Shown here one piece after another: positions 7,805 to 62,700 of a stretch of DNA of 64,000 nt. The stretch's first letter is position 1. Every line of letters starts with the position of its first letter. Origin of the DNA: Sistotremastrum niveocremeum HHB9708 (lineage: Eukaryota > Basidiomycota > Agaricomycetes > Sistotremastrales > Sistotremastraceae); contig KV419397.1 of assembly GCA_001630475.1 (NCBI GenBank), forward strand, positions 503,758-567,757. Direction: 5' to 3'. Position numbers and translations under genes: made by a program. The notes under the pieces were generated by a model. The model did not search any database. It had not been told where the DNA came from and saw nothing but the letters and a program-made list of their open reading frames with translations.

Positions 7805-9862
7805 ATGATGTATCCACACTTGCTTCCAATTGCTACGGTTTGGGCTCTTGCCCATCCTGCTCTTTCAGCTGCCACACCACCCCCAACCGTCTTCGTCGCG
7901 AACGGAACAATAACAGGCGGTTTCTGTGATACGGCCCTGGCTGTATTTTACAGATCCATTCCCTTTGCCTTACCTCCTATTGGAGATCTACGCTTTGCGC
8001 CCCCTCATCCGTATAATCAGAATTTTGGCAATGGCAGCCTGACAGCTATCGAGCAGGCACCTGCTTGCATTCAGTTTGGTAGCGTGTTCGTGGAAAACCT
8101 ACCGAATTCAGAAGACTGGTAAGCATAGTACTCTCTGTCAGTTTAAAGCATTCACATGAACTAAGGATATAGCTTATTTCTCGATATCTGGGCCCCTGCA
8201 AACGCAACAAATACGTCTTCTCTACCCGTCAGAGCCTGGATTTATGGTGGCTCAAACACCGCCGGCGGAATATCAGATCCTCTGTACGATGGTTGCAACG
8301 TTGCCGCTGGCGGAGCTGTCATGGTGTCAATTAGCTACCGTGTTGGTCCGTTGGGATTTTTGGCATTGAAGAGTGCTGGGATCGCTGGGAATCAAGCCGT
8401 TCAGGATATCCTGTTAGGTCTTCAGTGGATCCAAGAGAACATCGCCGCTTTTGGTGGTAATCCGGTGAGTCTGAAGACGTTTGAAGACGAATAAGTATTG
8501 ATTTTGGTCCGCAGAAGCAGGTCGTTCTTCAGGGTCAATCTGCGGGTGCTGGGAATACATTTGTTGTTTCATCGCTGCCACAAGCCCTCTCTCTCATTCA
8601 GGCAGCTATCATGGAGTCCGGAGGTGGCCAAGACTACCCTTCAAACTCGACTGCTCAACTTTTAGGCGCTAGCTACACTTCGGCTTTGAACTGCAGCACA
8701 GCTGATGTTAGTGATCTTCATCCTCGCTTCGACGAAGACTGATGTAGAAATTTCTTAGATCTCGTGTTTGCGGAATGCTTCCGTGATTGAGCTGCGAGCA
8801 GCGTTCAACGACACTCCGGTGTTGGTGACCGACGAACCACTGAATGCAGTTGGCGTTTCAAACATCAGCACGTTTGCTTTCGCCTCGTACGTCGATGAAG
8901 ATATCGTACCGGTTCAGCCATCACAACAAGGTTCCAGAGTGCCAGCAATCTTTGGATCTAGTGTGTATTCACGTAATCTATTCCGTTCCATTCATGCTGA
9001 TGGCTCTCCAGCGTCACAAGATGGGTTTTTGTTCTCGCTTCTCCAGTTCGCCGATCTCCCAAATGGACCTCAAACTGCCAACGCTACGGATTATCAACTC
9101 TTCTTGGACGAAAGTTTCGGGTCAGACGCTGGACTGGTCGAACAATTCTTCCCGCTGTCAGCCTTCAACTCGACGCCTGGCCCTGCGTTCTTCGCAATTT
9201 CGACGGTTCTGACCCTCGCTGCTGAACGGTGTCGGGTGTTCCGTGGCATGAACGCGACGGCTGCTCATGGCGTGCCTGTCTACGCTTACATATTTGGCCA
9301 CAGTCCCACATGTTCGTGGATTCAAGGTCTTCCGGACGAGTCATTGCCTCTCATCGGAGCTACACACACATCGGAAATCCCCTTTGTGATGAACAACACA
9401 AAAAATCTTCCCGCTCCGAATGGGAATTGTAGCATGACAGAACAGGAAGTCGACATCGCGACATTCTTGACGAATGCGTGGACGAGCATGGCCATCAATC
9501 AAAAGCCCACTCTTAATGTCAGTCAATGGCCTGCGTGGGGTCTTGATACTTCGCTTGGTCTTAATATCACCAATACTTCGGTTGCCGGATTCCTGAACTT
9601 CAGCGCGTGTCAGTTGTTTGACAGCATCAATACTATGGCTATTGCCGCTGCTCAGAATGACAGTGCAAATTCCACTAGTGGGAGTTCGAATGGAACCTCG
9701 TCGGGATCAGGTGGTACAGGTAGTAGTTCGAATGGTACTTCGTCTGGAAGTAGCCCTTCGTCGAGCTCTTCCAGTGCCGTCGAACTTCTCGTCACTCCCG
9801 ATTTGATCTCTTTGGCAATGGTCGCGACCATTATTTCCATAGGTTCGTCATGGCTCCTCTAG
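7805..9862 (+). CDS. secreted type-B carboxylesterase, probably GPI-anchored
   Basis: An alpha/beta-hydrolase of the carboxylesterase/lipase type, splitting ester bonds outside the cell; the substrate is unknown. A signal peptide (MMYPHLLPIATVWALAHPALSA) precedes the family opening FYRSIPFALPPIGDLRF. Exon 1 ends at 8118 and exon 2 starts at 8173, giving the disulfide Cys and LFLDIWAP. The oxyanion region is WIYGGSNTAGG and the nucleophile elbow is GQSAGAG (GQSAG instead of the common GESAG). The catalytic His lies in GATHTSEIPFVM. The C-terminus is unusual: a Ser/Gly/Thr spacer followed by a hydrophobic tail ending SLAMVATIISIGSSWLL, typical of a GPI attachment signal. Further introns lie near 8466-8516 and 8706-8759. 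Many Asn-X-Ser/Thr sites fit secretion. Confidence 0.87.
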
Positions 9863-26806: not shown

Positions 26807-27087
26807 CGCATTCTCGCGCAGATCGGTGGCCAGAGCCAGAGATTTCTTGAGAGGGAATAACCACAATTTAGTCGTACGACATTCTAGTGAAATTTGATGA
26901 TATAGCATGGCACGGATGCGCAGTTACAGTGAGAACCCTGGAGAGGGGCACAACAACTCGTCAGCTTATGTAATATCGTACGACCTCTGCGGTGATGGTC
27001 GCCGGTATCTCCGGTCAGACCATTCTCCTCGTAGTGGTCTGAGACTCTCCTTTCTTCAAACCGCCAACGCATTTGCTTTCCAGCACT

Positions 27088-29783
27088 ATGAACGACCCCG
27101 CCGACACTCTGTACCCGTCCGATGCCATGGGCAACGATGCTCTGGAATATCTGTCTCCTCTGTCTTTCATTGACTTCCAGAATACCGACTGGCAAGCAAC
27201 AGACGGAATGGATTTTGGCGATTCACAGCTTACATTGGGATCTCAGTGGCCCGAGCCCAACGCAACCTGCAGTCCGTCAGATTTAATTGGAGGCACCAGC
27301 AGCCAAAGCAACTCGAGCTTTGAGTACGACTTCTCTTTCCGAGTAGATGGGCCAATGCCTACCGGGCTTCCATCTCCACCAAGCACGTCCTCGATGCCGT
27401 CACCCAATTCCCAACAAGCACGGTCTCCTTCCTTGGAAGCCTCAAAGCTCATCCCATACCCATCGACCGACCTAACAAAGGTCCCAATTCCACGTTTACC
27501 GCGGCCAGCATTCGCAGATCCTGCGACATCCGCCGTACCCTCTAAGCGTTCCAAAGCAGCCGATTCTGATGCACCTCCAAAGGTTCGCACCAAGACATCG
27601 CATACCACCATCGAGCGTCGATACCGCACCAACCTCAATGCCCGTATCACGGGCTTACGCCAAGCAGTTCCCGCACTTCGTGTTCTCGATAAATCATACG
27701 TCCCCGTCAATGGGATCAAGGACCCAATCGATGATCGAGGCTACGTGGATGGAGTGAAGGCTGCACGGAAAGGAAGCAAAGCGACTGTTCTGGGGAAAGC
27801 AACGGAGTATATCACGTTCGTACACTTCTCACAAATTCGTTATTTTATCTGACCTGGTTTCTAGAGTCCTTAAGAGACGTGAAGCTCGGCTTAGAGGCGA
27901 ACTTGCCGCGATCAAGTCGCTCTTTGTCTCATTAGTACCGGGAGGAGATGCAGTTCTCATGTCTTGGGAGACGGCCTATACCAGCGCTTCTGGTGGAGAG
28001 CGTGCCGACGAAGTGCCCATCGACGAAATCGAAGATGACGAGGATGAGGATGAGGAGGAAGGCGCAGACGAGACTGCCCCCGCACCGCCGAAGAAGAGGG
28101 CGAAAGTAGAAAAGGCGGACGAAAAGCCGAAAGAACAGAAGAAGAAGGTTTCACAGGTTGTCACCATCCATCAAGCACAGCCTGAAAAGCGAAAGAGAGG
28201 TCGCCCGAAGAAGGTTTCCGAGGCTGACTTCAATGTCGTACTTGCTCCCACCCAGCAGCAGGCTCCGATGCAACTGCAATCCCCAGAACAAAGCGTTGTT
28301 CATCCCATGTCCAATATTCCAGACGACATCTCGTCTTTCATCATGCATTCCCCCATGCAGCCCGTCGTCCTTCAGCCGGAACAGCCAGCTCGATATCTAC
28401 TTGCGGCATTCGTTTTCTTCTCCTTCTTCCGAACACCTAGTCAAACTCCCTCGCCGGCAGCCACCCATCATCATCAGGGTGCAGTGCTTAATGCGCTCCC
28501 TACCCCCGTTGCCACGACCGGTTGGACCTTGAACGACTTTGTTCAGGTTGTTCACCTCCTAGTTTCCTTGCTTCTCGTGTTATCACTGGTCGCTCCATAC
28601 TTGCCCACATCAGTGAGAGCTTCCAAGATGTTCAGAACGATGGCTTTCGTCGGACCAAATGTGACCCCAACGATCAAGGAGGATAAGAAAGACGTCAAGA
28701 CGAGTGGACCTCAGCTCTCCGCCATGAGAGATCAGATTCTCGCTTCTCACGTCGTCGGAGTGCTCGGAAGTGTCCGACGATACATAGCTCACCGCGTCGG
28801 CCTTCGTACCCGTGATGAAGACGGACAGGCCTGGTTCAAGGTTGCCGAGTCTTTGATCTTGTCTGGTATGTTTCCTTTGACTTTCCTTAGTCGTATCCGT
28901 TTCTAACTTCCTTGTAGATGAAAAACTGTCTTTCCTTTCGCGTCTTCAGCTCTTCTTCCTCTGCACAACCACCGTCGACAAAGGCACAGAAGCATCATCT
29001 TTCGCAATCTTGTCCATTCTCACACGACCACTATCTGCGTCATATGCAAAACTTCTTTGGTCGAAAGCGCAGGCCCGTGCGGAAGATGACGTCGAAAAGG
29101 TTGCCTTAGACGGCTCCTTGAAAGAGAACATAGCCTGTCTCGGACGCCGAACAGTAGACCTATCGTCAGATGGGAAGCTACTCGATGTGCTTGCAACTCT
29201 CAAAGTCGCCGAATGCCTAGCTAAAGCCACCGAAGAGCTTTTCTTGGAGCGGGTCCTGGGCAGCCCGGATGCGCAAGAAGAGCACGAGGGTAAAGCGTCC
29301 ATGAAGGAGCAAGAACAGTCTTTGAGGGCGGCAGAAAAGAAGCAAAAGTCGATTTTCAGAGTCGGTGAAATCCTCGGCGGGGATTTAAGAGATCTCGTGC
29401 AAGCATACTTTGCTCTCCGCTCTTCCCCGCCCGTGCTTGCGGATGTTCCCCCGTCACTTCTCTCGGTGCCGCCGTCAACGATGTCAAAAGTTCAAGCGGA
29501 TGCGCATACCTTTCTTTCGTCAGTGTATCTCCTGCATCGTCTTTTCCCGTCGCACACCCTTTCGTCGCTTTCCGGAACAACCCCAAGTACAGGTTCCAAA
29601 CCGTCTTCAGTACCTGCCATGCCTCTCTCTCCTCCCCCAAGTCCCTTATCATCGAGGATGAGAAGTAAAGAAGAGGCGAAGTTGTTGGTTTCTCTGCGAT
29701 GTATCTTAGCCACCGACGTATTCGAGCGAGCAGGAGGAAGGCTGGAAGAGGGACGGGACGCAGTCGCGGACTTGATCATTTAG
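27088..29783 (+). CDS. SRE1: SREBP, membrane-anchored bHLH transcription factor (Sre1-like)
   Basis: Sterol/oxygen-responsive factor released from the ER by cleavage to switch on sterol genes. Three exons (27088-27815, 27865-28865, 28918-29783) join in frame to 864 residues. After a Ser/Pro-rich acidic activation region comes the bHLH: HTTIERRYRTNLNARI from residue 172, with the Tyr of ERRY (residue 179) that sets SREBPs apart from other bHLH factors, then a long loop and KATVLGKATEYI TVLKRREARL. Two hydrophobic stretches follow, RYLLAAFVFFSFF (about 420) and VQVVHLLVSLLLVLSLVAPY (about 468-488), with a short hydrophilic loop between, as in the hairpin of SREBPs. The remaining C-terminal domain would be the cytosolic regulatory part. 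An acidic/Lys patch (EDDEDEDEEEGADE) lies between bHLH and membrane. Confidence 0.9.
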
Positions 29784-30280
29784 AGCAAGCTCTTACATAT
29801 ATCTTATTCTTGGGCACGTACTAAGTAACTGTCGTCCGGCAGCGTATACTATTCTTATACACACTTTTGTGATTTAATAATGAATCCGACTTTTAAGCTT
29901 TGTGACTGTCATTCGATCGAGCTCCTGCGCTCAAGGCGACATACATGTACTCTCAAAGGTGGCACCTGCCACGTCCGTGTATCGCGATCGAACTGGAGCG
30001 CAGCTTTCGCTCAGGCCAGTCTGCCGGTACATTGATATAAATGTTGTCGACTTGAGACCATGCGCGATATATTCGAAACCGATAACGTTCAATAATATCA
30101 CTAATTTACGTACATAAATCTCGCAGAGGGCGTTGAGTCGGGTTCCTCCATGATGCTCGAAGAAGAGCAGAAGATTGCAACACAACAAGACTGCTTGACA
30201 AGGGATCGGGGTGCGGCCGTCGCCCGACCGCTGAGTGGTTCGTTTGGACGTACTGGGTGAATATGTATCTAAATAATCCG

Positions 30281-30664
30281 TGAGGCCGTATCTTATATAA
30301 CCTGAGCGCATCTTCTTCGCATGACCGAGTGGGGGCCTCGCCCATCCACGACAGTACACCTGTCGCTGAGTATCAATAACAAGGTTGCCACCAACGCCCA
30401 GTCCTTCCGAAGAAGAGAAAGTTTGATGGCTCCCGGTGTGCGAGGAAGAGGCTCTGAGAGGAGGCCAATGTCGAGAATTGACCATAGTGATGGAACGAGG
30501 GAGAGCATGAAGAACGGCTTTCATAATACAGAAAATCTTATATAGTGTCGTGTTCGGAGTCTGAGGCGCGCTTTGAATTCAATGTCTCGCCAGAATATTC
30601 CGAGACCATCGAGAAATATAAGGGGGTTTCACATTCGACAAAGCTCGAGCTGAACGAGCTGAAA
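30281..30664 (-). repeat. palindrome left arm (core)
   Basis: Left arm of the palindrome. On the minus strand, reading away from the spacer, TATATAAG lies at 30544-30537, followed by an ATG at 30524 opening a long frame (MKAVLHALPRSITMVNSRHW) that continues past the arm. The corresponding frame in the right arm stops early, so conserved coding is not supported. Confidence 0.85.
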
Positions 30665-30812
30665 AGCGGTGAGTTCGGAAGCAAGAACCTGAGGGCCGCC
30701 CTGGAAACGGCTACGTTCGAACTCCGATGCCAGGTTGCAGTCGGGTTGCTGTGTCGGCCAAGTTAAGTACCCGCCTCCGACCCGACATTACCGCCGCCGC
30801 CCTTTTCCAGAG

Positions 30813-31197
30813 TTTCAGCTCGTTCAGCTCGAGCTTTGTCGAATGTGAAACCCCCTTATATTTCTCGATGGTCTCGGAATATTCTGGCGAGACGTTGAAT
30901 TCAAAGCGCGCCTCAGACTCCGAACATGACACTATATAAGATTTTCTGTATTATGAAACCTGTTCTTCATGCTCTTCCCCGTTCCATCACTACGGTCAAT
31001 TCTCGACATTGGCCTCCTCTCAGAGCCTCTTCCTCGCACCCCGGGAGCCATTAAACTTTCACTTCTTCGGAAGGACTGGGCGTTGGTGGCAACCTAGTTA
31101 AGATACTCAGCGACAGGGTTACTGTCGTGGCTGGGCTAGGCCCCCACTCGGTCATGCGAGGAAGATGCGCTCAGGTTATATACATAATAAGGCCTCA
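30813..31197 (+). repeat. palindrome right arm (core)
   Basis: Right arm of the palindrome. TATATAAG lies at 30933-30940 and an ATG at about 30953 opens MKPVLHALPRSITTVNSRHW, which ends after some 30 codons. The matching frame in the left arm stays open, so the two arms do not share a coding frame. Confidence 0.85.
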
Positions 31198-31475
31198 AAG
31201 ATTAGCTTGATACATATCTCTCGGTCTCGGTGGGCCCGCCCTCCAAAGACTACGGAGAATAGACTCACTTTCACTTCGCTCCCAACTCAGATCGTACATT
31301 TTGTGGTCGTGCCGCACTGGACTACTAGTATGGGACATCGAACCCGTCCAGCAGTGCAGTCTTGTTGCTCTGATGTCTTCTACTCGTCTCTGAGCATCAG
31401 GGAAGACTTCAGCTTGACAATCTCTGCGAGATTTATGTGCATACACTATTAGAATTGTCGAAATATATCATTATC

Positions 31476-33433
31476 ACTAGTTAGCACTGTCAAGAATCAG
31501 ACTCAAGATACGTTTTGCACTTCGTCGGAACAGCTTGCGTCGGAGTCACTAATCATCATGACGTCTTGATCATGGCCGCGACGCGATTTACTACATGTAC
31601 TCGTAGCAATGTAGCTATCGCGCCATCTTATCCGCAACCTCATGAAGTTTGAACAGTGACGGTTTACATCCAACTGGTAGCAAGATCGGTCTCATTATCT
31701 GGTCAGAAGTGCGTTTCTGTTCCGCGAGCGTAACTTTCACCAATCACTGACTTTCTCCTGACATTCCTTACAGAGAGCCGCTTCACCTTGAAGCTTGTTA
31801 ACGTTGAGTCATGATCTCCCTCATCAATCTCGTTGATCCGTTGTTGAAATCACGGCATTTTTCAGTGGTTTCATCCCTATGTATACTCAGTTCCGGCTAC
31901 CACAGTCACTTGATCAAGGGGTTTTCGGTCTTCACTTGCAGCACGTCGACGTACTCTTTTCACCCTACCTACCCTAGGACCTACCAATGCCTGTGACCGA
32001 ACTCTCGACACAATATTAGAAATGGCCTGTCAAGACGACCCAGAAGACTCGATTTTCCCACTTTTCACAATATTGAGGTCCCTTTCCACGCTAAAATGAC
32101 CTCACAAAGATGCGCATCCACCCTGACAACGAGTGCGAGTTCCCATCAAGGTCATGCCAGAGTCTCAATTTTCAAAATTAGGCGCCCAGTGTTCATCGCG
32201 AATTTTGAAAGTGGATACGCCGTGCTACCCTAGCCTAGGCACTAAACTCGTGTTGAGACAACGAGAAAACTTGAGAGGTTGAGCAGATTATCCGCATCCT
32301 CCGGATGAAAAGTTCCTGTGAACGTCGCCCGGTGGATTCGTTCACTCAAACTTGTTCTCTCCGTCGAGAAGTTCCGCTCAGCCCGAGGATTGGGTAATGA
32401 ATATGAGGTCAGTGGTAGCGCATCTCTTCCCATTGCCACTTGACGCTCTTGCAATAGTTCGTTCCAGCATCGCCACGCACCTGGTTCGCTTGAAGATGAG
32501 CTGCCTCTATGTCCGTCTACTGGGCTATTGACATGCGTGTCGTGTCCTGTGATGGATTGATATGACACTATTCGCGCATCGCTCATCAAAGAGTACGAGA
32601 CAATGCAACATATATTTGCGCTTCTGTGGTGCCTCGGTTAGAAGATGCGTGAAGCGGATCACTTGCGGAAACTCTGCCACCGCTGGGCGTAGACCTGTAT
32701 GTTGTTACATTGCTATTCTGCTACTTCTATGGCCTGGAGATGACCTTCAAACTGCAGGTTTTCCTTCTTCAATTGTGAATGTTGACTATATGTGGCCACT
32801 GCTACTCCCAACGCTTTGCGTGACTATTCGCCTTTGGAAGCTTGATTTGACCTGCAACCCTATGCGCTGTCGGTTACGGGAGTTTGCATGTAAGTATTCG
32901 GCCTTTTCTGCGGTCAGCGCTCTTCGACTGCTTTTTCTCGTAATAGGCACTGAGTGGCTCCTCGCTACGGGAAAAATCGGTGCGTTCGTTGACTATGCTG
33001 TCGAAACATCATAAAAATATATCGCAGAAGACGAAATGAATCTCTTTGCAAGTACAAGCAATCGTCACCGTAATTGTCCGCATATTCGGTTTTGGCGGGC
33101 CGAACTCTCGGTTGTCTTTGGCCGTGTTTGCGCTGAGGTTGCAGCCACTCGGTAACGTTTCTTTTACGTCCGTGTCATGCTGGAGACTCATAATGCTTGC
33201 AGACACATCATTCTCTTTAACAGTCGTGATATACACACAGACGAAGCGCATATATGCGCCCCTATCGGCCCCATATGAAGAAATGTTAGGCGGGTCACTT
33301 GAAGGTGTCTTGTTGTTGAATCGCATAACTTAGAAATAATATTGCACGAGAAATAAAGTAACCCAAAGGCTAGCTTATTTATATGTAAAGGTCTCGTCTA
33401 TTCACATAAGCACCATTGAACACTTGAAAGCCC
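31476..33433. other. gene-poor stretch
   Basis: Nearly 2 kb without a supported gene. A 115-codon minus frame (32242-32589) and a 150-codon plus frame (32562-33014, with hydrophobic stretches such as YIAILLLLWPG and PLLLPTLCVTI) overlap slightly and show no family I recognise; the second could be a remnant of a membrane protein. No terminal repeats, tRNA or simple repeat were seen. Confidence 0.4.
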
Positions 33434-33481: not shown

Positions 33482-35642
33482 ATGCCTCAGCCTCAGGCTC
33501 ATTCCAAATCAAGCGACGCTACCCTTGCAAGCAACGGACATGTCTGTCCTTTTTGCCTGATCACACACGACAGCGAACACGACAACCGTAAATGGCGCCT
33601 ATTAAAAGAAATCATTACGACCGAACGCTCCAGACGAAGACCGATTCCAGATCCTTCACAATCCGAGTCTCCCGGCTTATCATACGAGCTACATCCTGCG
33701 GAAGAGCCTGACAGCTCATTACTGAGAGCAGGTAATGTGCTTGATACATATTTTTCCACCGTATTGAAGGCCATCCAGGATTGACCGAACAGCACAATCT
33801 ACAAGAAACGAAAGCGGCTCTGCAGGCGCTCTCACGTCTTCTTGGCCCACGATCCTACGCAGGACCCTTAACACACAAGGATAAGATGCGGAAACGGGCA
33901 ATTGAGATGTTACCGCGACGCCCGGATCAGTGGAGGGCCGGCGTCCAGTACCTGCTTCGAGGGACGACTACAGAGGCTGCTGAGCGGCTAATGCTGGAAC
34001 TGATCGTCAGGTGAGTCCCTGTGTTGTATAGCGACGCGTTCTGTCGGATGGCTGACTGTGTACTAGCGATCCGATCTGGTGGGACATCACCACCCATTGT
34101 ATTGATCTCTGGCCACTCGATTTGAGATGGTCGCACGAACGGATCTCTGCCCAACGTGATTTATTCTATGAAGCTCACCGCAGCCGAACATGGTTCTGTC
34201 TTTCGCCCGCCGCGCGGACTTCTCTCTCAGCAGCCTCATCCCCCACTTTTCCTACACATAATTTTACTTCCTTTATCGACAGCGCAAACATCGTATCCTT
34301 TAACTTCACACTATCTGAGCTCGAACGCTTCCGAGCCGCATCACAGAACCTGCCGCCTTCAGCAGCTACCGAAATTAGTGTGGTTGATGATAGGCTGGGC
34401 GAGGGACGAAGCGTCTTCTTCCCCGACCTGAGCTTCTTGCCGAACCTCAGGACGATTAAATTCGAAGCATTCCCGATGCTTGGTCAGCATGACGAGTTCG
34501 AGGCTTTCCGACCCTCCTTCCGACCCTCGCTTAAACACATCTTCATACGGACAAACCAATCCCAGCGAGTCGCCGTGAAATTCATAGTGGATCTTCTCAT
34601 CTACGGCATCGAATTGAAAATTCTTCATCTGTCGTTCTCTCACAAACCACATCCAAACTCATCTCTCGATGCAGACTCGATGCTGCTACATGGTCTTGCG
34701 CCCTTCCCCTCGCCTCAACAACGTCTTGAGCTCGAAGACTTAAAAATTGGCTCCGTGCAACGTTTAGGGATCGATTTTATCATGCAAAATTTTGTTTTCA
34801 ACGAGGAAAAATTTGATTTTGCGGCCATCTTGTGGCAACCCCCCTCCCTGGACATCAAATCCAACACTCGCATCAATCTGCCTATCACACTTCCCAGCGG
34901 GTTGGAGCGATGGATGAAAACCGCGGATCACCTTACCTATATCGTAGACCCCATCTCCGACAACTTCATTATCACTTACGCTTCGCGTGAGCGCAAAGTC
35001 GTACATTCGCTCTACGGCACGAATCTGCTTGGTGATACCGCCAAGGTCGTCGAGGGGGGGAGAGTTTGGCCTTCGCCGGTCTTCAATGACATCAAAAGAT
35101 GCTTCAAAAACGTTACCAAGGCCAGATTCCACGGGGTGCTGGGTACTTACGACCAATGGAAGAGCTTCTTGTCCAAGACCACCAGACTCTGGTACATTGA
35201 AGGCGCCGGCGTTAATGCTCATTTGTTAGCGCGTTCTCTCGTCAACAACGCCACGGCTGGCAAGACCCTTAAAGTGTTGAAGGTGTGGAATATCGGGTTC
35301 GACAATTCGGCTCCTGGGTTCACCGACCCCAACGTCCTTTTGCGGTGGCTCGCCGATCAAGCACGACAACGAAAGGACTCTACGATGAACATCTCGAGTC
35401 AACGGGAGGCATTGGGACATCCTCTTGAGCTCTGCGCGTATCGGTACAACCTCGACGCTGCCCATTATCGTCATCGCGAACATCCTACTAGACCTCTTCG
35501 TATCGGACCTTCAGCTTTAAAAACCGAAGCCCTATTCCGAAGTCATCATGGATTGCCCGCGCCTCCCCCTCGCGCTTGGCCCAGGATCTGCGGCGTATGG
35601 ACGACGGATGATTTGCTCGAGAGTGGTATTTTCTGGTTGTGA
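33482..35642 (+). CDS. orphan leucine-rich protein with a short Cys motif near the N-terminus
   Basis: Three exons. The start at 33482 (context AACATGCC) is preferred over the in-frame ATG at 33434. Near the N-terminus stands CPFCLITHDSEHD, a Cys/His group that might bind metal. Intron 1 (33732-33778) restores AGLTEQHNLQETKAALQALS, and intron 2 (about 34011-34066) leads into SDPIWWDITTHCIDLWPLD. The C-terminal 450 residues have widely spaced leucine-rich lines (FLPNLRTIKFEAF, IELKILHLSFSH, KTLKVLKVWNIGF), as in mushroom F-box/LRR-type proteins, but I see no F-box. The protein ends GVWTTDDLLESGIFWL. Function unknown. Confidence 0.72.
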
Positions 35643-59723: not shown

Positions 59724-62700
59724 TCACGTACATGGGTTGTTCGTCTGGGGCACGCATTTGTACGGGGAAACGCAGCATTTGGCGCCTGTCCAGCCTATTC
59801 CGCCACACTGGTAGTACTGTGCAGCGCATGAGGCTGTAACGCAGTAACAGTTAGCATGAGCTGTATCAAGAGCGTGGACAGATCTTACGAGTGGGGGTTG
59901 ACGTAGACTTGGTGGAAGTAGACTTGGTGCTGGTTGAAGTAGACTTGGTGGAAGTCGATGTCGACTTAGTCGAAGATGAAGTCTTGGTCGAGCTCGAGCT
60001 GGTGGACTTGGTAGACGAGCTTGTGGTTGAGGTACTCTTAGACGTCGACGAGGTCGTCGTAGAGCTCGTGGACTTTGTAGTCGTGATGATGGTCGTAGTC
60101 GTCGTGGTTGTCGTAGAGCTAGTACTACTCGTTGTAGGAGTTGTGCTGGTAGTTGTTGTTGTGCTGGTGGTGGTGGTAGTGGGGCTAGTGGTAGTCGTGC
60201 TCGTGGTCGACGTCGTGCTGGAGATTGAAGAGGTGGTGGTGATACTGTGCATAGCGTAAGCACTAGACATGGCCGTCGAAGGAATCATACATACCCAGTT
60301 CCTCCCGTTCGCTGTTGTAAAAAGACAGCGGTATATGCAGGAATAACAATGTAGCTCGAAGAAGTGATGGAAATAGTAGTCTGTAGGTAAATTAGAAACC
60401 GCAATAGAGCGTGAGGAAATATCACAAACCTGGTACTTCGCAACACCAGCCTCACCACCGAAATGACGCAAGAAGTAAGTTCCAGCAGGCACTCCGCCGA
60501 GATTGAGGGAAACGGGGCCACTGGGGTCCTTGTTGACGACGACAAGAGTGAGGTTGCTTCCACCGTTGGTGCCAGCGTAGACGCCCAGAACATCGGGATC
60601 GAATCCTGGGATACTGACTTGGGCGCTGGAGCTGCCGAAGAAGGTTCCGAAGCTGTAGAAAGATCAGCATTGGGTTCGAGTGATTTTATCTATTCGTACC
60701 CTCTGTAGAGCCAGTAAGCCAGACCGACGGGGCCATTCTCATCCGGGTCCGACCAGTAGGTGGCAGCATCGAGTTTGTATCGGCCGTAGATACCAAGGGC
60801 GTCAACAGTCAACAAACCACCAGTGAGATCGGTGTCATCGGTTGAGCTCCATTCACTCAAGGAGAACTTGGTGTTGGGATAATGTTGATCGATCAAGGTA
60901 TGAATTCTCGGAATGAGTTGGATGATGCTGGAGTTCGGTTGATGATTGGCAGTGCTAGTCGCAACCCAGGATTCGTCGACGTATGTAGGATCCCAGAGTG
61001 ATCGGGTCATTCTCAATCGAAGTGCTTTGGCAGCAGCATCATTGGCGCTCGTGTCGGGCTGGTAATAGTAATGAAGATCGATGATGTCGACGGGCTTCAC
61101 GCCGGTGGCAGTCGCTTGCGCTTGAAGTTGATCGAGGAACCAGGGGAGGAAGTCGGTGTTGTTGTGTGCTTCCTGATCAGAGGCACCAACTTGACTGATC
61201 CAATCTTCATAATCACTCGTTCAGTATGACGTCCGTGAACTAAAGGGCATAATGGACTCACAATACCACCAAGAACAAGTAGAAGGAGCAGCGACGAGCA
61301 CATCGGGGAGTACAGCCTTAGCCATAGCGGAAACATTAAGAACGCGAGCAAGTTCTTCGTCATAGCCCATAGGACTGGGACGAAAAATAATTAGCATATA
61401 CACGTGTGCAAGGGACGGGTGAAATCTTACATAGGATGCATATCCTGATGGGTGTTGCTGGCAATTTCAATCTCGTTGTCGACAGTGATGATGGTAGGCT
61501 TGTTTGCGAGGCCGCTCAGCCATTGGCTTGCAGCGCTCATGTTCCACGGGACGTATACATGGTTTTGGTCGGGAACAGGGGTGACGTAAGAGCCATTAGG
61601 GAACAAGCCACTTCCCGCATCTGAGTTATAAGGATCGAAGGCAGTTTGATCTGGAGTGTATTGAGTCACTTGATCTCTAACAAAGGTAAAGAGTTATGCG
61701 TACTGGGATAAACCGAAGCCGGATAAGAATACGATGTCGCATCTTTAGCGACCCAGTCCAGTCTGATCATCGTCATTAGACAAGATTGGCTTTAAAGAAT
61801 AATAGTGAGACTCACGCAGGAACAGTCACAATAGATTGCGATCCGGCTCCTCCGACCCAGCCGATCCAGTCATCGGCGCTAGGAGGATCAGCCACCCGGT
61901 TCTCGAAGTACCAATCGTTTCCAGCGTTCGTGAACTGGCCGAAAGGGTTATAGGCAGTCACTGCGTTACCACCCCAACGAGACAGCGTGACTCCGAGATC
62001 TTGAATGTACGATGCAGACGTCGGGAAGTTCACTCCGTAGATGAGAGGAGAGATGGGGTAATTGGTAGATTGATCGACACTTTGGAAGGAAGTCGTGTGT
62101 CAGAAGGCTGCATGTGCGCAACGTTGCAGGTACTTACGTTCCAGACAGCGATGACGGTAAAGTGTAACTGAAAGTGCCATTGGCAGTCGTGATAGTCAAA
62201 TTACCGGGAGCAAAAGACGACGCGAGGGTCAAGTAACTGATTGAGCTTGAAGGTGCACCGATTGGTGACATAGTCGAAGTTCCGACGACAGAAACAGCCT
62301 GTAAGCATGTCTTCAGTATTTTGATGGCAACGAAGTACTTGATGCTCTCACCTGTCCATTGAGCGCGACCTGGATGGTACTAACGTCGGCGCCTCCAGCT
62401 GTTGTAACGGCGATGACGTTAGTCCCGATAGGCTCTGCACTCAAAATATCGGGGTTGACGAAGATTTCCTAATGATCACCCTGAGCCCATGATTCATAGC
62501 GAAGCATAAAGACTTACGTCAAGAAGGATTATGTTGTCAAGATGATACTATCGTCGATCAATGAGTAAAGAAACGTAGAGGAACGGTTGACTGACTTACG
62601 ATTGCTCCATTCCCTCCGGCTTGGAAGGTTATACGGTCCCAAGTGTCGCTGGCCTATTGAATATAAGAGACGTGAGTTAGTTGATGAATCAACGCTAAGG

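Follow-up and report, generated by a model that had tools for sequence, protein, structure and literature searches.

The palindrome in the window, that is, the whole stretch of 64,000 nucleotides analysed here (C4:503758-567757 of the 34.7-Mb, 111-contig genome of Sistotremastrum niveocremeum HHB9708), is most probably made up of two head-to-head copies of a structured noncoding RNA gene that recurs many times in this genome, with a shared promoter region at its centre. This confidence applies to the identity of the element and not to its function, and it overlaps with that given to the alternatives weighed below, so that the odds do not sum to one, since under some of these, a structured leader or a once-mobile element, it would be a structured RNA too. 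Each arm holds an element of approximately 200 nt (Table 1) belonging to a family of about 56 units in this genome, and fifteen pairs of units have a common head-to-head layout with similar spacing.

Self-comparison of the window places the inverted arms at 30294-30664 and 30813-31182, approximately 95% alike and with a 148-bp spacer between them, in agreement with the arms of about 385 bp reported in the initial annotation. They incorporate pieces of 288 nt (30377-30664/30813-31100; 96%, 148 nt between) and 81 nt (30294-30374/31102-31182; 94%), accompanied by a further piece of 39 nt (30261-30299/31179-31217; 77%) and an additional outer inverted pair recovered by BLAST (83 bp, 73%). Chance is excluded for the palindrome core because the arm-to-arm BLAST match has an E-value of 1.2e-170, and the seventeen ungapped differences that separate the aligned arms (30813 to 31182) make a simple assembly mirror unlikely. 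Aligning the arms, as the annotation had proposed, thus confirmed that the palindrome is real. From the centre outward, arm identity is 98% (30813-30929), 93% up to the start of the structured core and 94% within it, followed by 82% over the next 46 bp and by 41%, 66% and 58% thereafter, in line with the weaker outer symmetry, to about 1.4 kb, that had been described. The highest identity is found in the centre-proximal promoter region and not in the structured core. Gene conversion between the arms and selection on the core had both been put forward for this pattern; the gradient would fit duplication or gene conversion proceeding outward from the centre better than selection on the core alone, and the arms may have stayed alike either through recent duplication or because conversion has spread from the centre. 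The left arm has an altered hairpin 2 loop and one mismatch in helix P2, and may therefore be decaying.

Table 1. Positions of the palindrome features and of the frame representing the linked protein family, in window coordinates
Feature	Position	Strand	Basis and remarks
Left outer weakly symmetric zone	30065..30290	-	BLAST, arm identity; possibly the downstream part of the left transcript
Left structured RNA core	30291..30492	-	140 bits with model R1; also a model training sequence
Hairpin 2, left unit (loop differs: GTGTA)	30349..30365	-	RNAalifold, pattern search, sequence
Hairpin 1, left unit	30463..30483	-	RNAalifold, family pairing test, sequence
TATA-like box, left unit (TATATAAG)	30537..30544	-	Sequence; placed as in other members
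Spacer between arms	30665..30812	.	148 bp; centre of the putative bidirectional promoter
TATA-like box, right unit (TATATAAG)	30933..30940	+	Sequence; placed as in other members
Pyrimidine-rich stretch	30961..30988	+	Possible transcription start region
Right structured RNA core	30985..31185	+	137.2 bits with model R1; also in the model-building alignment
Hairpin 1, right unit (GGTCAAT / ATTGGCC)	30994..31014	+	RNAalifold, arm fold, family pairing test
P2 5' strand, long-range closing helix (TCTTCCTCGCA)	31028..31038	+	By eye and arm fold; weaker across the family
P3 5' strand (CCGGG; partner CTCGG at 31147-31151)	31041..31045	+	By eye; model helix; absent from the lowest-energy fold of the arm
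Hairpin 2, right unit (CGACAG / CTGTCG, loop GGTTA)	31111..31127	+	RNAalifold, arm fold, pattern, family pairing
P2 3' strand (TGCGAGGAAGA)	31155..31165	+	Alignment, arm fold; TGCGCT follows at 31166-31171
Right outer weakly symmetric zone	31186..31475	+	BLAST, arm identity; possibly the downstream part of the right transcript
528-aa stop-free frame	34056..35642	+	No Pfam or PDB match; RNA units near most places of its family

In the surrounding interval, first described as gene-poor, two stop-free frames of at least 150 aa are listed between 29784 and 34055, at 29931-30578 (-) and 32553-33014 (+), the latter of which has no Pfam match. The former, of 215 codons, spans most of the left arm, and no frame of that length occurs in the right arm among the listed stop-free frames. 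The earlier statement that there is no coding conservation between the arms therefore holds, and coding arms were rejected as an explanation. Across the family, no single sense frame runs open across the core in more than 7/33 members, and two tandem units on C14 have nearly identical cores with differing gaps downstream; the RNA family thus appears to have no conserved protein-coding frame. No tRNA was found in the window. Elsewhere in it, a bHLH-domain frame is located at 27043-27852, and the frame at 60690-61220 (-) presumably encodes a GH44 enzyme. Its PDB matches are cellulase/xyloglucanase entries, led by 3fw6 (E 2.1e-28) and with others named Cel44C, and the frames adjoining it are Ser/Thr-rich and cellulose-binding-like in look when inspected by eye.

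A MAFFT alignment of seventeen units, not fitted to any structure, contains a core of approximately 200 nt with two hairpins in which the two sides of each stem vary together, and RNAalifold predicted 22 base pairs from this alignment, eight of them with compensatory change. A covariance model (R1) comprises hairpins 1 and 2 and the long-range helices P2 and P3, both of which were drawn partly by eye. When thirty members (28 distinct) were aligned to R1 and compared with 500 shuffles, pair-keeping changes on both sides were observed in 18/28 base pairs (shuffle mean 11.9), 88.0% of the cells were paired (79.6% shuffled) and 79 cells were changed on both sides (28.7 shuffled; 2-15 when partners were slid by 1-3 columns), in an alignment that leans to its own structure and in which related copies count repeatedly. 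The number of further pair types among these thirty members was not beyond the shuffles (38 versus 34.9, reached by 44/500). Thirteen members that were not used to build R1, most of them found via the hairpin 2 pattern and some via R1 or a DNA search, were all likewise aligned by R1, seven being close copies of one subtype. Among these thirteen, hairpin 1 is paired in 81/89 cells (slid controls 10-53%), hairpin 2 in 72/72 cells and its outer pairs in 30/36, and P3 in 47/52, while P2 is weak, with 75/103 cells paired (73%; slid controls 32-65%). Across the family, compensatory changes preserve hairpins 1 and 2, and P2 only weakly, with conservation measured among copies in one genome, many of which are close and non-independent. 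Of four sequences folded singly, three have unremarkable energies (z -1.66, 0.33 and -1.26), and the fourth has z -3.48.

Over all helices there are 82 G-U against 19 A-C cells, and in the two hairpins 37 against 5. The RNA strand is therefore the strand that reads outward from the palindrome centre. This strand-specific asymmetry also argues against the hairpins being DNA dyads, that is, symmetric protein-binding sites of a bidirectional promoter and not RNA, as does their location downstream of the TATA-like box. Although hairpin 2 does form a dyad, which is repeated as a module in some members, it is extremely unlikely that the hairpins function in this manner.

Membership of the RNA family was determined from the genome itself. 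A BLAST search of the genome with the palindrome as query identified a 68% relative on contig C26, which, used as query in turn, gave sixteen matches on C26, C11 and C4, several in inverted pairs. Patterns designed after the first members had been seen gave 38 genome-wide matches for hairpin 2 and 29 for hairpin 1 (up to two mismatches; reversed controls 0 for both), and thirteen for hairpin 2 with a four-base loop (up to one mismatch; one match, on C16, doubtful; reversed control 0). For 19/29 hairpin 1 matches, a hairpin 2 match follows in the same orientation at 80-180 nt. The union of the matches to the hairpin 1 and hairpin 2 patterns (29 and 38) and of 35 model matches comprises 56 units on C4, C11, C13, C14, C23 and C26, two of which are weak, namely C26:317007 (22.9 bits) and C26:133636 (12.1 bits with R1). 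A second model, R2, built from the thirty members, recovered 35 distinct members with E below 1e-8 in the loci around the units, the thirty included, and no members in 23 kb of STE3 loci used as control. A second hairpin 2 module with an additional compensated stem is present in loci L056 (1660-1681, +; AATGC/GCGTT) and L034 (4029-4050, -; AACGC/GCGTT), 159 and 113 nt downstream of the first, respectively, and the repeated module is also found in L057, L058 and L060.

Thirty of the 56 units form fifteen head-to-head pairs with 5' ends 424-553 bp apart, these ends being estimates for units known through hairpin 2 alone, and one of the pairs (C26:133.8/134.3 kb) includes a weak arm (12.1 bits with R1, 18 with R2). 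The window palindrome is one of the fifteen, with 5' ends separated by 505 bp on this estimate, or by 493 bp if the ends of the model matches are taken. Among neighbours up to 1.4 kb apart, four share a strand and none are tail to tail, the closest arrangement of that kind being at 1.5 kb. Partner-core identity in nine pairs is 0.46, 0.56, 0.65, 0.66, 0.93, 0.94, 0.95, 0.98 and 1.00, so that among these nine some pairs are palindromes and others join two different subtypes; a third unit is found between the arms of the C11 pair at 0.98. The two subtypes paired on C11 at 80.8/81.3 kb, for example, are most similar to units at 433 and 428 kb on C26 (0.56 and 0.91 alike), and those units do not lie head to head. 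Since subtypes with diverged cores are paired, the head-to-head layout can outlive the palindrome. Another palindrome of the same family, at C26:354.7-356.0 kb (L030:8301-8870 and 9056-9625), has 570-bp arms that are 99.8% identical, perhaps through very recent conversion or duplication.

The leading interpretation in the initial annotation was a long-hairpin RNA locus, in which read-through of the palindrome yields a hairpin of several hundred base pairs that serves as a Dicer substrate and feeds RNA interference. Arms that are approximately 95% alike over about 370 bp would suit such a locus, as would the 570-bp arms at 99.8% on C26. However, the promoter-like blocks are located inside the arms and face outward, and their transcripts would therefore not cross the centre; four of the nine pairs compared, with partner cores 0.46-0.66 alike, are still head to head; and the helices kept by compensatory change lie within one arm. 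A hairpin locus is thus very unlikely, while the second interpretation offered at the time, a duplicated divergent promoter, stands, with the promoter-like blocks of both arms facing outward and the matching TATA-like motifs recovered in the two units (Table 1). This suggests that a fungal palindrome may be a pair of RNA genes with arms kept alike, instead of a silencing trigger.

The dozens of copies across six contigs and their inverted-repeat form could also be expected of a non-autonomous mobile element (foldback, MITE or SINE-like), the copies of which spread and then decayed, and in some subtypes part of hairpin 1 looks, by eye, like a polymerase III B box, which would favour this origin. 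The copies are, however, concentrated on C26, C11 and near one gene family, pair spacing is similar even where the arms have diverged, and the structure is conserved with a promoter-like spacing. Many copies with transposon ends had been expected of an ordinary repeat; copies there are, but neither common ends nor a target-site duplication were seen in an inspection by eye confined to the window locus. A mobile origin is considered quite unlikely.

Promoter-like motifs, which were chosen after inspection of the sequences, include an AGACTC-type box located 67-72 nt upstream of the core in 14/33 members and a TATA-like box 43-55 nt upstream in 19/33 and 65-73 nt upstream in 7/33. The 5' splice-site-like motif GTAAG is present within 100 nt around or after the core end in 21/33 members, with close copies counted singly, compared to 6% of random stretches, and in this 100-nt stretch of neither window arm. 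In a pair of RNA genes, transcription would proceed outward from the shared promoter region, probably by RNA polymerase II from a TATA-like promoter, and the first exon would end at a GTAAG-type 5' splice site, although neither window arm has one. The same splice-like signal, together with the homology of the C26 copies up to approximately 1.1 kb downstream, might instead indicate that the elements are structured 5' leaders, or first exons, of a fast-evolving protein-coding gene family that has gone unrecognised. This is unlikely, however, given the frame-breaking gaps seen by eye in the downstream alignments, and given that the only frames shared across contigs are those of the linked protein family and those overlying the units or the flanks of units.

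The family of the 528-aa frame is the only protein family common to contigs in the loci compared, the other cross-contig frame matches listed covering RNA units and their flanks; these loci were centred on units and thus form a biased sample, whereas the genome searches are unbiased. With three protein queries (E up to 0.001), the latter gave fourteen places, all on C4, C11, C14, C23 and C26, each of which carries RNA units. Relative to 58 units (the 56 and two from the four-base-loop pattern), 6/14 places are within 1.6 kb, 11/14 within 5.1 kb and 12/14 within 7 kb. When places were put at random on the same contigs, with the length of C23 assumed, the averages were 1.35, 2.64 and 3.15, respectively, and the observed proximity was reached in 2, 0 and 0 of 5000 trials, with at most nine places within 7 kb. 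Of the two farther places, a fragment at C26:419087 is approximately 8.6 kb from a unit and the one on C23 approximately 36 kb, and C13 has two RNA units and no protein-family match. The RNA family is associated with one protein family; as both are clustered on C26 and C11, a common duplication history may explain part of this association. Five members of the protein family matched no Pfam family at E up to 1, so that an F-box/LRR identity was not upheld, a PDB search of the linked protein gave nothing usable, and its single-sequence AlphaFold model (mean pLDDT 37.4) was unusable. The protein is LRR-like in look, by eye only, and its family appears to be fast-evolving and to lack recognised domains.

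A mating-pheromone gene pair was rejected as the identity of the palindrome, as all 25 STE3 matches listed are on C13 and C35. C13 is the only unit contig with STE3, where the nearest listed places are approximately 177 kb from units. The 25 pheromone-receptor segments among the matches listed on C35 and C13 amount to several receptors' worth.

In all six protein places within 1.6 kb of a unit, the unit lies 3' of the matched stretch, and this position together with the association suggests that the RNA could control the neighbouring protein by antisense or form a complex with it. The likeliest function, proposed only tentatively and less probable than not, is that of a nuclear regulatory RNA, in which hairpin 2 (loop GGNTA) would dock a protein and which would act on or with the neighbouring protein genes via antisense transcription or an RNA-protein complex. 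Rather doubtful is the notion of a two-part cassette without known counterpart, in which the fast-evolving protein family and a dedicated structured RNA, often as head-to-head pairs beside it, would form one RNA-protein complex (self/non-self, silencing or selfish element). If true, an RNA family of dozens of copies outside Rfam and tied to a protein family would represent a new class of eukaryotic RNA gene, and this is directly testable.

Rfam families are likewise structured RNAs described by covariance models, and a known RNA family was rejected because the window and five related loci matched no family of Rfam release 15 at gathering score; relaxed thresholds gave weak matches only, far below the gathering scores and none credible. 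Fifteen candidate structured ncRNA motifs have been described from fungi (Li and Breaker 2017; PMC5640933), and according to the accessible text of that study these were, like the present family, found by compensatory change, and G-U versus A-C decided the strand assigned to the SART-1 motif, the same sign used here. The ies6 and SART-1 motifs are proposed there to occur in antisense RNA of a neighbouring gene, while the main text does not contain the words Basidiomycota and Agaricomycetes. The motifs are named after other genes or classes and, going by the descriptions given in that text, do not seem to cover the present family, which is multi-copy and arranged in head-to-head pairs. An inventory for Pleurotus (PMC5040776) lists snRNAs, snoRNAs, tRNAs and miRNAs in its accessible text. 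A literature search, slight on subscription journals, found no description of the RNA family, and the exact hairpin 2 pattern was absent from the viral and prokaryote sequence collections.

In telomerase RNA with spliceosomal 3'-end processing, a structured RNA is followed by a 5' splice site. The present family likewise has a structured RNA followed by a 5' splice-site-like signal, but occurs in dozens of diverged copies, and no template repeat was recognised in it by eye. Inverted arms of several hundred base pairs are a feature of the long inverted-repeat loci that yield hairpin RNA for RNA interference. The arms of the palindrome are similar to these, but the promoter-like blocks inside them face outward, and elsewhere in the family the arms have diverged while the helices within each arm have been kept.
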